From Anaerosomatales bacterium (GTDB lineage Bacteria; Actinomycetota; Coriobacteriia; Anaerosomatales; Anaerosomataceae), in NCBI GenBank assembly GCA_030019445.1, contig JASEEU010000008.1, forward strand, positions 1 to 64,000: a stretch of 64,000 bases of DNA, written 5' to 3'. The notes beneath the pieces are model-generated. The model was given only the letters and a program-made list of their open reading frames with translations, did not search any database and was not told the origin of the DNA. A program made the translations under genes and the position numbers. Positions 276 through 54,035 of the stretch are shown in pieces. How positions within the stretch are numbered: the stretch's first letter is position 1; every line of letters starts with the position of its first letter.

Positions 276-1643
276 CTAGTTCCTCTGCTTGATGAGGTTC
301 GTCAATGCTTGTACCTGGTTGTACACCTCGCGCTGCTCATTCATGAGCTTCTGTATCTTCGCTGTCGCGTGCATGACCGTCGTGTGGTCGCGACCACCGA
401 ATTCTGCACCGATGCGGGGTAGAGAGAGATCAGTCAGTTCCCGGGCGAGGTACATCGCTATCTGCCGAGGGAATACGATCGCCTGGCTTCGCTTGTTGCC
501 CGTGAGTTCACCTTTCGTGATCCCGTAGTGTTTACAGACCTCTTGTTGGATCACCGCGACGGAGATCGGCTTCAGGGAGCGCTCCGGGAAGATATCCTTC
601 AGGACGCTCTGCGCGATCTCGAGGTCGATCGGGTGCCGCGTCAGCGAGCTGAAAGCGACGATGCGGATCAGAGCCCCTTCGAGTTCTCGGATGTTCGACG
701 CTATCCGACCCGCCACGAAGCTGAGCACCTCATCAGGGATAGACAGCGATTCAGCTTCGACCTTCCGCCGGAGGATGGCGATCCGGGTCTCGAGGTCCGG
801 CGGCTGGATATCGGTGATCAACCCCATCTCGAACCGACTCCGGAGACGGTCTTCAATGCTGCCGATATCCTTCGGTGGTCTGTCCGAAGAGAGAACGATC
901 TGCTTACCCGCCTGCTGCAAGGTGTTGAACGTGTGGAAGAACTCCTCCTGGGTCCCCTCTTTGCCCGCGAGGAACTGGATGTCATCCACGAGCAAGACGT
1001 CGTTCTGCCGATATGAACGGCGGAACCCCTCGATTCGGCTCTTGCTTCGATCACCGATCGAGTTGATGAAGTCATTGGTGAACTGCTCGGTAGATACATA
1101 CTTAACACGCAGGTGCGGGAAGCTCGTGTGGACGTAGTGACCGATAGCCTGCAGGAGGTGCGTCTTACCGAGCCCGACACCACCGTAGATGAAGAGCGGG
1201 TTGTATGCGCCGCCCGGAGTCTCTGCGACGGCAAGAGCCGCGGCGTAGGCGAACCGGTTCGATGACCCCATCACGAACGAGTCGAACGTGTACTTCGGGT
1301 TGAAGTCGCCGGCGGAGGCTTCCTGGACGCGGCGCTGTTCAGCCTGCTCGAGATCGGGGATGGCAACGGTCTCAGGAGGCTGGGGCACAGCCGGGGCGTC
1401 CCCGGACACGCGGAACGATACCGAGAGGGGATGACCGGTGACCTGCGTAAGGGCCGATACGAGCAGGCCCGCATAGCGAGACTCCAGCCAGTCGCGGGCG
1501 AAATCGTTCTGCACCGACACGATGAAGGTGTCGTCGATGATGCCGAGAGGGGCCGTGTGCTCGAACCATGTCTTGAAGGTCGGAGTGTTCAGTTCCTGGC
1601 GGATGACGTCGAGGGTGTCGTCCCAGACCTGCTGTACTTCCAT
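276..1643 (-). CDS. dnaA: Chromosomal replication initiator protein DnaA
   Basis: The 455-residue product binds DnaA boxes in oriC, forms an ATP-dependent filament, melts the origin and helps load the DnaB helicase encoded at 50.4 kb. Visible features are the N-terminal oligomerisation domain, an AAA+ core with Walker A (GGVGLGKTH) and Walker B (LLVDDIQFL), and a C-terminal DNA-binding domain with the signature [11 protein letters not shown] chose ATG at 1643 because AGGAAG lies 8 nt upstream; a GTG at 1652 is in frame but has no well-spaced ribosome site. It follows the GHKL/winged-helix gene on the same strand after a 12-nt gap, so the two are probably co-transcribed and translationally coupled. 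Length is typical. Confidence 0.98.
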
Positions 1644-50375: not shown

Positions 50376-51743
50376 ATGGCGGGAAGCGGCACGCGGAACC
50401 CCGAGGAACGGGTGCCTCCGCACAACCTGGAGGCGGAACAGTCCGTGCTCGGCTCCATGCTGCTGTCCGCTGACGCCACCGAGACCTGCCTGCGCATGCT
50501 CTCCCGGGACGATTTCTATCGCCCCGCGCACGGGTACGTCTTCGACGCCATCAACGACCTGAACGGTCGCGGCGAGCCGGTCGACCAGATCACGGTCGCT
50601 GACCGGCTCGAGGCGATGGAGAAGCTCGACGTGGCCGGTGGCAAGCCGTACCTGCTCGATCTCGCCAGCGTCGTCCCTACCGCGGCCAACGCCGCGCACT
50701 ATGCCGAGATCGTGAAGCGGACCTCGATGCTGCGACAGCTCATCGGGGCGGCGACGTTCATCAGCGCCGAGTGCTACCGCAACCCCGACGACATCGACGC
50801 GGTCGTCGAGGACAGCGAGCGCGCGATATTCAACGTGACCAACAAGCGGGTCTCGAGCAACTTCCGCAACCTGGAAGATCTCATGAAGACGGGCTTCGAC
50901 CAGATCGAGAAGCTCTACGACCGCAAGGAGCACATCACCGGGGTGCCCACCGGCTTCGAGGACCTCGACAAGATCCTCGCCGGACTGCATCGTGGCGACC
51001 TCATCATCCTCGCGGCACGACCGTCCGTGGGGAAGACGGCCTTCGCGCTCAACATGGCCGTCAACGCCGCCAAGAAGGGGCATCCCACCGCCGTCTTCAG
51101 TCTCGAGATGTCAAGCGAGCAGCTCGTGCAGCGCATCCTCTGCTCGGAGGCGCGGATCGACAGCCAGCGGTTGAGGACGGGCTATCTGAAGGACAGCGAC
51201 TGGCCGCAGATCATGCAGGCCATGGGGCGGCTCCACAACATCCCGCTGTGGGTGGACGACACGCCGTCGATCTCGATCCTCGAGGTGCGCGCGAAGGCAA
51301 GACGCCTCCTCCGGGACAAGGAGGACGGTCTCATCATCGTGGACTACCTCCAGCTGATGCAGCCACAGAACCGCCGGTCCGAGAACCGCCAGGTGGAGAT
51401 CGCCGAGATCAGCCGGGGACTGAAGATCCTCGCCAAGGAGCTCAACGTCCCCATCATCGCGCTCTCGCAGCTCTCGCGTGCCGTCGAGCAGCGCACATCC
51501 AAACGGCCGGTCCTCTCGGACCTGCGCGAGTCGGGCGCGATCGAGCAGGACGCCGATGTCGTCATGTTCATCCACCGGGACGTCTACGAGTCGACCTCCG
51601 ATGACGGCGATCGCTCAGGCATGCCTCCAAAAGGAGAGGCCGAGGTGATCGTCGCCAAGCACCGTAACGGCCCCACCGACAGCTGCCACGTGGCGTACCT
51701 GTCCAACTACACGAAGTTCGTGTCGATCGCGAAGAACGTGTAG
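50376..51743 (+). CDS. dnaB: Replicative DNA helicase DnaB
   Basis: The 455-residue hexameric helicase has the N-terminal DnaG-binding domain (PPHNLEAEQSVLGSMLLSAD) and a RecA-like core with Walker A (AARPSVGKTAFALNMA), FSLEMSSEQLVQRILCSEA, Walker B (LIIVDYLQLM) and SQLSRAVEQR, RESGAIEQDADVVMFIHR. No intein is present. It starts at ATG after the rplI terminator. It acts at forks loaded from the dnaA/oriC locus. Confidence 0.97.
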   Translation: MAGSGTRNPEERVPPHNLEAEQSVLGSMLLSADATETCLRMLSRDDFYRPAHGYVFDAINDLNGRGEPVDQITVADRLEAMEKLDVAGGKPYLLDLASVVPTAANAAHYAEIVKRTSMLRQLIGAATFISAECYRNPDDIDAVVEDSERAIFNVTNKRVSSNFRNLEDLMKTGFDQIEKLYDRKEHITGVPTGFEDLDKILAGLHRGDLIILAARPSVGKTAFALNMAVNAAKKGHPTAVFSLEMSSEQLVQRILCSEARIDSQRLRTGYLKDSDWPQIMQAMGRLHNIPLWVDDTPSISILEVRAKARRLLRDKEDGLIIVDYLQLMQPQNRRSENRQVEIAEISRGLKILAKELNVPIIALSQLSRAVEQRTSKRPVLSDLRESGAIEQDADVVMFIHRDVYESTSDDGDRSGMPPKGEAEVIVAKHRNGPTDSCHVAYLSNYTKFVSIAKNV

Positions 51744-51786: not shown

Positions 51787-52257
51787 CTACTCGGCGGGGA
51801 ACTCCTTGGGCACGCGGCCGATGGCGCGTATCGAACACCGGGACACGCGATTCAACCCCAGTTCGTCCGCGCGCTCCCGAACGGCCCGCTTCCCGACGCC
51901 GGGGTTCAGGTACACGTCCTGGATGCTGCGACCGTACCGCTCCTCGAGCGCCGCAAGCGCATCGAGCGCCTGCAGCGCCGGCTCCTCCGGCAGGTAGAGG
52001 CTCGCACGCTGGGGAAGGTCAGGAAGGTCGGCGATGTCCTCGTAGACCGGCAGACTCTCGATCCGGCCCCCGCGCGGGTTGACGGGCCAGACCTCCCACC
52101 CCTCTTCGGCGTACGCCCTGACGGCCTTGTTGCCGTACTTGGCGCGGTCGGCCGACGCGCCGATGATCGCCACGCGCGGGCGATGGGCGAGCGGCTCGGC
52201 GTCGTGATCGGCGGTCGGCAGCGCCCGCAAGGAGCCCTCGGCGTGCACCTCGCCCAT
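51787..52257 (-). CDS. CoA-binding domain protein
   Basis: The 156-residue Rossmann-fold protein contains VAIIGASADRAKYGNKAVRA, GWEVWPVNPRGG and VYLNPGVGKRAVRERADELG, typical of the CoA_binding_2 family (YccU-like). Cofactor role is unknown. Its ATG at 52257 overlaps the TGA stop of the upstream selenocysteine glutaredoxin gene (TGATG), so the two are translationally coupled; GTG 52260 is an alternative start. The shared operon suggests a joint redox or thiol role. Confidence 0.87.
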   Translation of the reverse strand: MGEVHAEGSLRALPTADHDAEPLAHRPRVAIIGASADRAKYGNKAVRAYAEEGWEVWPVNPRGGRIESLPVYEDIADLPDLPQRASLYLPEEPALQALDALAALEERYGRSIQDVYLNPGVGKRAVRERADELGLNRVSRCSIRAIGRVPKEFPAE

Positions 52258-52508
52258 CACGCGTCGCGCAGCTTCTCGAACTCGGTCGGATGCCAGCCGA
52301 CCATCGCGCGCTCTCCGACGAGGATGACCGGGACGCCGTACTGCCCCGTCATCGTCACCATGCGGCGCAGCCCTGCGCGGTCCTTCGACACGTCGATGTC
52401 GGTGAAGTCGATCTGGTGCTCAGCGAAGTACCTCTTCGCGTACTCGCAGTAGGGTCATGTCGGCGTCGTGAAGATCGTGACGCTCTTGGGCATCTCCGCA
52501 GCGCACAT
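52257..52508 (-). CDS. Selenocysteine-containing glutaredoxin (UPYC active site)
   Basis: Read through one in-frame UGA (52457-52455) this gives an 83-residue glutaredoxin. The active site reads TTPTUPYCEYAKRYF, so Sec replaces the first Cys of CPYC. The thioredoxin fold is complete on both sides of the UGA: IDFTDIDVSKD, the cis-Pro segment YGVPVILVGE and the C-terminal GWHPTEFEKL. It resembles YruB/NrdH-type glutaredoxins, and Sec forms of this family are known. ATG 52508 follows AGGAGGGCACG; ATG 52493 is internal. A SECIS-like hairpin lies at the right distance after the UGA. Ordinary gene calling would miss or truncate it. No selA/B/C/D genes lie in the window. Confidence 0.87.
52423..52447 (-). 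promoter_or_regulatory. SECIS-like hairpin for the glutaredoxin UGA
   Basis: Beginning 8 nt after the UGA, GCGAGUAC pairs with GUACUUCGC through 8 bp and one bulged U, with the 8-nt loop GCGAAGAG. The loop begins 16 nt after the UGA, close to the spacing of E. coli fdhF SECIS. Bacterial SECIS elements lie inside the coding region right after UGA, as here. Confidence 0.7.
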
Positions 52509-52646
52509 CGTGCCCTCCTCGGTCGTGGCGACACCCATTACCTGCCCTGCCGTCACGGGTACAAAACACCTGGACACCGGGCGCCCCGGCGTGCCGCCCC
52601 GCGGCTGCGCGCGTCGCGCTCACGCACGCTCCGCCGAGGAGGACGC

Positions 52647-54035
52647 ATGACTGCCGAACGATACGACGTCGTGGTCGTCGGAGCCGGCCCCGCCGGCATC
52701 TTCGCCGCGATCGAGCTGCTGCGGACGCGTCCGGCGATGCGGGTGCTGATCGCCGAGCGCGGCAAGCCCATCGCCAAGCGACGCTGCCCTGCGCGTGAGA
52801 CACACTGCGCCGACTGCGAGACCTGCTCGATCATGACGGGATGGGGCGGAGCCGGGGCCTTCTCGGACGGCAAGCTCACCCTCACCACCGAGGTGGGGGG
52901 CTGGCTCGCCGAGTACGTCGGCGTCGAACGCCTGCACCGATTGATCGACGATGCGGATGAGCTCTGGCTCGAATTCGGTGCGACGCCACAGGTGCACGGG
53001 CCGGATGCCGAGACCGCGACGCGGCTGCGGCGGGAAGCGACGCTCGCCGAGATGAAGCTCGTGCCGATGCGCATCCGGCACATCGGCACAGACCGCTCGC
53101 CCGACGTGCTCCAGGCCATGCACGACCACCTGCTCGCCAACGGCGCGACGATACGCACGTCCACACGGGCGCGTCGTGTCCTGGCCGAGCACGGGCACGT
53201 GACGGGCATCGAGCTGGAGGACGGCTCGGTCATCCATGCTGACGCGGTCATCGCCGCGCCGGGTCGCGACGGAGCGGACTGGCTGGCCGAGCAGGCGGCC
53301 ACGCTGGGCGTCGGGCTCGTGAGCAACGCGGTGGACATCGGGCTGCGCGTCGAGGTCCCCGCGCCGGTCATGGAGCGCCTGACCGACCACCTCTACGAGG
53401 CTAAGCTCATCTACTACTCCAAGCGGTTCGGGGATCAGGTCCGCACGTTCTGCATGAACCCGTACGGTGAGGTGACCACCGAGAGCTACGGTGAGATCGT
53501 GACGGTGAACGGCCATTCGTACGCCGCACGGCGCACCGACAACACCAACTTCGCCGTGCTGGTGAGCCAGTCGTTCACCCACCCGTTCCGCGAGCCGATC
53601 ACGTACGGCTCGTCGATCGCCCGGCTCGCCAATCTGCTCGGCGAGGGCATCCTGGTGCAGCGGCTCGGCGATCTGCGCGAGGGTCGCCGTTCCACCGAGA
53701 AGCGCATCGCGCAGTCGGTCGTCGTTCCGACGCTGCTCTCCGCGACCCCCGGCGACCTCTCGTTCGTGCTGCCCTACCGGCACGTCGTCGACATCCTCGA
53801 GTTCCTTGGCGCGATGGACCGGCTCGCTCCGGGCGTGGCAGGCGATGGGACGCTGCTCTACGGTGTCGAAGTGAAGTTCTACTCGTCGCGTCTCGAGCTG
53901 GACGCCGACCTGCAGACGCAGATCGCGGGGCTGTATGCCATCGGCGACGGCGCGGGCGTCACCCGCGGTCTCATCCAGTCGAGCGCCAGCGGCCTCGTCG
54001 CGGCGCGCGCCGTGGTGCGCTCGACCGAGGGCTGA
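52647..54035 (+). CDS. FAD-dependent oxidoreductase (NAD(P)/FAD-binding protein)
   Basis: The 462-residue flavoprotein has the N-terminal dinucleotide fold (YDVVVVGAGPAGIFAAIELL), a Cys-rich segment CPARETHCADCETCSIMTG (five cysteines), GWGGAGAFSDGKLTL and the C-terminal GLYAIGDGAGVTRGLIQSSASG. It belongs to the group of FAD-dependent dehydrogenases often annotated as uncharacterized or HI0933-like. The cysteines may be a redox or metal site. ATG 52647 follows GAGGAGGACGC. It is divergent from the glutaredoxin operon. Confidence 0.85.
   Translation: MTAERYDVVVVGAGPAGIFAAIELLRTRPAMRVLIAERGKPIAKRRCPARETHCADCETCSIMTGWGGAGAFSDGKLTLTTEVGGWLAEYVGVERLHRLIDDADELWLEFGATPQVHGPDAETATRLRREATLAEMKLVPMRIRHIGTDRSPDVLQAMHDHLLANGATIRTSTRARRVLAEHGHVTGIELEDGSVIHADAVIAAPGRDGADWLAEQAATLGVGLVSNAVDIGLRVEVPAPVMERLTDHLYEAKLIYYSKRFGDQVRTFCMNPYGEVTTESYGEIVTVNGHSYAARRTDNTNFAVLVSQSFTHPFREPITYGSSIARLANLLGEGILVQRLGDLREGRRSTEKRIAQSVVVPTLLSATPGDLSFVLPYRHVVDILEFLGAMDRLAPGVAGDGTLLYGVEVKFYSSRLELDADLQTQIAGLYAIGDGAGVTRGLIQSSASGLVAARAVVRSTEG

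Follow-up and report, generated by a model that had tools for sequence, protein, structure and literature searches.

Genes and features at the locus

The window (the whole stretch of 64,000 nucleotides that was analyzed) comes from a genome assembly of the order Anaerosomatales and contains a glutaredoxin gene interrupted by an in-frame TGA, which lies together with a gene for a CoA-binding protein between dnaB and a gene for an FAD-dependent oxidoreductase. The features are as follows:

50376-51743, plus strand: dnaB, the conserved neighbor that marks the slot, convergent with the glutaredoxin gene (named from its sequence)
51787-52257, minus strand: gene for a CoA-binding protein, 156 aa from its ATG (Pfam PF13380; its start overlaps the glutaredoxin stop in TGATG)
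52257-52508, minus strand: predicted Sec-glutaredoxin gene, 83 aa, active site TPTUPYC (translation with TGA read as U, Pfam PF00462, orthologs)
52423-52439, minus strand: conserved bSECIS-like hairpin, GCGAAG-AGGUA-CUUCGC (GCGAAGAGGUACUUCGC; conservation and the rule of PMC13188914)
52455-52457, minus strand: predicted Sec codon, in-frame TGA at codon 18 (all 11 Sec orthologs align with TGA here, 14 others with a Cys codon)
52514-52519, minus strand: Shine-Dalgarno sequence AGGAGG, 5 nt 5' of the glutaredoxin ATG (sequence)
52647-54035, plus strand: divergent gene for an FAD-dependent oxidoreductase with a PF21688 C-terminal domain, a conserved neighbor (Pfam, synteny)

An initial annotation, made without indication of strand, had described a full glutaredoxin with TPTUPYC at 52257-52508 and an AGGAGG ahead of its start. 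Both were recovered on the minus strand (the Shine-Dalgarno sequence reads from 52519 to 52514), and no glutaredoxin was found by translation of the plus strand at 52257-52508. With TGA read as U, translation of the minus strand from 52508 to 52257 gives MCAAEMPKSVTIFTTPTUPYCEYAKRYFAEHQIDFTDIDVSKDRAGLRRMVTMTGQYGVPVILVGERAMVGWHPTEFEKLRDA, and the gene ends at a second TGA (52259-52257). The product matches the Pfam glutaredoxin family PF00462 above its gathering cut-off (1.3e-15; 57.8 bits, cut-off 22.9) and contains both the UPYC active site and GVPVI, the combination of C/U-P-x-C and VPV that is asked of a glutaredoxin; in this fold the VPV is the cis-Pro loop. The HMM and PDB matches settle the predicted fold as that of a glutaredoxin. 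The gene is missing from the list of open reading frames of the window because the TGA cuts its frame, which may serve as a warning to gene callers.

Orthologs, gene neighborhood, and evolution of the Sec form

The search for orthologs covered 400 genomes at the level of the class, followed by every one of the 69 genomes available for the order, and gave 26 close orthologs. TGA is present at codon 18 in 11 of them (the window's genome counted), distributed over three families of the order, 14 have Cys at this codon, mostly in a CPWC or CxWC motif, and in the remaining ortholog, that of G130, Arg occupies the two active-site positions. In the alignment the UGA thus falls on the first active-site Cys, as the initial annotation had anticipated. 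Among the matches listed from class members outside the order, the best showed about 33% identity, all were weak, and none contained a stop.

Nearly all orthologs, whether Cys or Sec forms, share the slot between dnaB and the divergent FAD-enzyme gene, and at every close ortholog examined one or both of these genes adjoin the glutaredoxin. In 27 of the 28 genomes tested that have no close ortholog of the glutaredoxin, the FAD gene still adjoins dnaB, and it is thus not a dedicated partner of the glutaredoxin. The enzyme of the window contains a Cys-rich segment, CADCETC. A single TGA in one FAD gene (L080, G062) suggested a second selenoprotein gene; this was rejected, since the aligned region is free of stops, which places the TGA at the C-terminal end or past it.

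In the phylogenetic tree, which has few strongly supported branches and low internal support, the Sec forms make up one group (support 93/96, or 89/96 when the Sec column is omitted). A rooted tree was also computed, in which one outgroup row (L053) was on the wrong strand, so its rooting is weak and indicative only. The grouping is consistent with one switch from Cys to Sec.

Two further genomes show the gene in altered states. In G070 (L059, about positions 1270-1400, minus strand), a glutaredoxin remnant keeps the start and the GERAMVGW end without the active-site half; dnaB, the CoA-binding gene, and the FAD gene are retained beside it, and selA and selB are still found in the genome. Judged from this arrangement, the remnant represents a selenoprotein gene in the course of loss. 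The shortened ortholog of G130 (L049, L090; G130:C46:4765-4959) has CGA and CGC at the two active-site codons, its GCGAAGAGGTACGTCGC is a nearly intact bSECIS-like sequence, and SelB is present above the cut-off in its genome; either the copy has decayed or the assembly is at fault here. Cys-containing, Sec-containing, and decayed versions of a single gene occur in synteny within the order and make a clean series for studying the switch between the two residues.

Selenocysteine machinery and predicted decoding of the UGA

The initial annotation had expected the Sec machinery to be encoded in the genome, and all four components looked for were found: in the 2.09-Mb assembly (97.6% complete), selD, selA, selB, and tRNA-Sec are clustered at 287.7-294.0 kb of contig 16 (C16), the tRNA-Sec having the anticodon TCA (ARAGORN). 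The selD gene has an in-frame TGA before AAKWGPGDL (L018, G000:C16:287768-287770), and is probably a selenoprotein gene itself. SelA was identified in 9 of the 11 Sec-glutaredoxin genomes; the other two have a completeness of 86%, and in one of these SelB scores above the cut-off.

If the UGA were a true stop or an assembly error, the gene would be a pseudogene or encode a 17-aa peptide. Most of the sequences are indeed draft assemblies and decayed copies do exist in the order (the G070 remnant without an active site and the shortened G130 copy with Arg at both active-site positions), but the identical TGA occurs at the same codon in 11 genomes of three families, the conserved frames are intact on both sides of it with conservation at the codon level continuing beyond it, and the Sec machinery of the genome is complete. 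We consider this explanation very improbable. Sequencing error in particular, the possibility that the initial annotation had singled out, is refuted because ten other genomes have the same TGA.

The open frame beyond the TGA would also agree with decoding of the UGA as another amino acid (e.g., Trp), and nothing else speaks for it. Several members of the family use TGA as their own terminal stop, orthologs have Cys at the aligned position, the gene contains a single internal TGA, and selA, selB, selD, and tRNA-Sec are present, all of which make such decoding hardly conceivable. A glutaredoxin with Sec at its UGA-encoded active site is, on comparative grounds, a well-supported reading, and it represents a genuine, additional branch of a known kind of selenoprotein.

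The candidate recoding hairpin

In the published bSECIS model, the stem has 4-16 bp, the loop 3-9 nt, the spacing is 16-37 nt, and the minimum free energy (MFE) is at most -7.5, with a G within the first two loop positions (PMC13188914). The conserved hairpin of the window has a 6-bp stem, a 5-nt loop (AGGUA), a distance of 21 nt from the UGA to the loop, and -8.0 kcal/mol, and lies within all four constraints of PMC13188914. The helix GCGAAG/CUUCGC is shared by the Sec genes (loop AGGUA or AGUUA): six of six stem pairs are kept in 11 of 11 Sec genes compared to two to five of the six in orthologs without TGA. Taken by itself, the stem is weak evidence: the residues AKRYFA predispose the sequence to pairing, and sampling of synonymous sequences gave no significance for it (34-52% of the samples form all six pairs), significance being confined to the codons and the loop; the stem is invariant across the 11 Sec genes and shows no covariation.

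Unlike the stem, the loop codon provides strong sequence evidence in favor of the conserved hairpin. Arg-26 is encoded by AGG in all nine Sec genes that have Arg at this position, and AGG accounts for 30 of the 672 Arg codons in neighboring genes (here and in the following counts related genomes are treated as independent, and p-values are indicative only). All six Cys orthologs with Arg at position 26 encode it by CGC; where Ser takes this place, in two Sec genes, its codon is the rare AGT (16 of 559 Ser codons), by which the AG of the loop is kept. Two-fold codons at positions 20-28 are in the preferred form in 65 of 65 cases, compared to 163 of 196 downstream. How the candidate hairpin was built up through codon choice (rare AGG and AGT) can likewise be studied in the syntenic series.

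The initial annotation had pointed to a different element, an 8-bp hairpin with a bulged U right after the UGA. This hairpin is indeed present: the window sequence has it as its MFE fold (-10.3 compared to -8.0 kcal/mol, i.e., 2.3 kcal/mol more stable than the conserved hairpin, with which it overlaps so that the two are mutually exclusive). Its 5' arm GCGAGUAC, however, lacks conservation among the ten remaining Sec genes, the distance from the UGA to its loop is 15 nt (the model minimum being 16), and the loop begins with G-C where G-G or G-U is usual. It was rejected as the recoding signal on account of these three properties, and we regard it as unlikely to have that role. For the 60-nt segment that begins at the UGA, the MFE structure contains the 8-bp hairpin and reaches -10.7 kcal/mol in all; with a z of +0.26, this structure is not more stable than shuffled sequence.

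The CoA-binding gene

The product of the CoA-binding gene matches PF13380 (CoA_binding_2; 2.1e-19, 70.5 bits, cut-off 22.8), and its nearest solved structures are 1y81 (2.1e-9) and 2d59. It resembles single-domain PF13380 proteins such as Pyrococcus PH1109 and 1y81, and differs from them in the start/stop coupling of its gene to a Sec-glutaredoxin in three genomes here. The TGATG overlap on which the initial annotation had based a small redox operon is present (52259-52255), but the operon itself is weak, since coupling was found in only 3 of the 11 Sec genomes: in the window (TGATG), in G020 (GTGA; read across two contigs that have 8 bases in common at their ends), and in G052 (ATGCCTGA). In the order, the CoA-binding gene occurs in 5 of the 69 genomes, of which four also carry the Sec form and the fifth its remnant; in G102 it is on another contig than the glutaredoxin, and in G070 it stands beside the remnant.

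In the genomes that have it, the pair is genuine and probably translationally coupled, and the two proteins may cooperate in these few genomes. By its distribution, the CoA-binding gene appears as a minor, lineage-limited partner, which most Sec glutaredoxins of the group lack. That the two proteins form a glutathione-free redox pair whose selenoenzyme acts on CoA disulfides or protein-bound CoA seems distinctly improbable to us.

Relationship to known redoxins and proposed mechanism

Sec glutaredoxins are already known: they were counted in Geobacter, Moorella, and Alkaliphilus in 2006 (PMC1794560) and are listed as UxxC, PF00462 in a 2026 review (PMC13188914). The protein of the window resembles the Sec glutaredoxin of Clostridium/Alkaliphilus oremlandii (4tr0/4tr1) in its PF00462 fold (by HMM) and in having Sec first in the UPxC/UxxC motif, and it matches 4tr0 with 1.3e-7 (sequence). 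It differs in its greater sequence similarity to redoxins of the YruB/NrdH type (74.5 and 46.5 bits) than to Grx3 (49.0 bits), in its lineage (uncultured Coriobacteriia-type actinobacteria), and in coming from a genome without the GCS2-type ligase of the glutathione pathway. Among the NCBIfam models, that of the YruB family (TIGR02196) gives the best match (7.1e-21, covering almost the full model), but its 74.5 bits are below the curated cut-off of 88.55, and Sec replaces Cys in the protein of the window. The Uxx-star glutaredoxin-like (seleno)proteins (NF041212, NF041114, NF041211) are likewise small and Grx-like with Sec at the same position; the scores of 62.9, 44.3, and 43.6 bits are all below the respective cut-offs of 66, 72, and 100. 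Uxx-star family 1 has UxxT (PMC13188914), whereas UPYC keeps the resolving Cys. A limited full-text literature search, which does not establish absence, returned no relevant paper on selenoproteins in Coriobacteriia. The locus places Sec glutaredoxins in an uncultured actinobacterial order, a new lineage for a kind already known, and it leaves the picture of selenoprotein chemistry unchanged.

We consider it very likely, from the comparative sequence evidence, that the gene encodes a functional Sec-glutaredoxin, that its recoding is directed by a bSECIS element, and that it arose once from a Cys form in the dnaB/FAD slot. The product would be a glutaredoxin-like thiol-disulfide oxidoreductase in which, by analogy with known UxxC redoxins, Sec-18 attacks and Cys-21 resolves. 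The hairpin GCGAAG-AGGUA-CUUCGC would bring in SelB and its Sec-tRNA-Sec for insertion of Sec at the internal UGA, yielding a Sec-containing protein, and the terminal UGA of the same gene would end translation. A single origin of the Sec form is most likely, from a CPWC-like Cys glutaredoxin in one lineage of this Coriobacteriia-type order of Actinomycetota, and at least one relative would later have lost the Sec half of the gene. As reductant, either the thioredoxin reductase of the genome or a small thiol other than glutathione may act. The thioredoxin reductase is favored over glutathione because it is present in the window's genome, because a search for the GCS2 type of glutamate-cysteine ligase found none there, and because the glutaredoxin sequence is YruB/NrdH-like.

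A second glutaredoxin-like gene is found elsewhere in the window's genome (G000:C17:128795-129028, plus strand); it is Cys-only and 27% identical.
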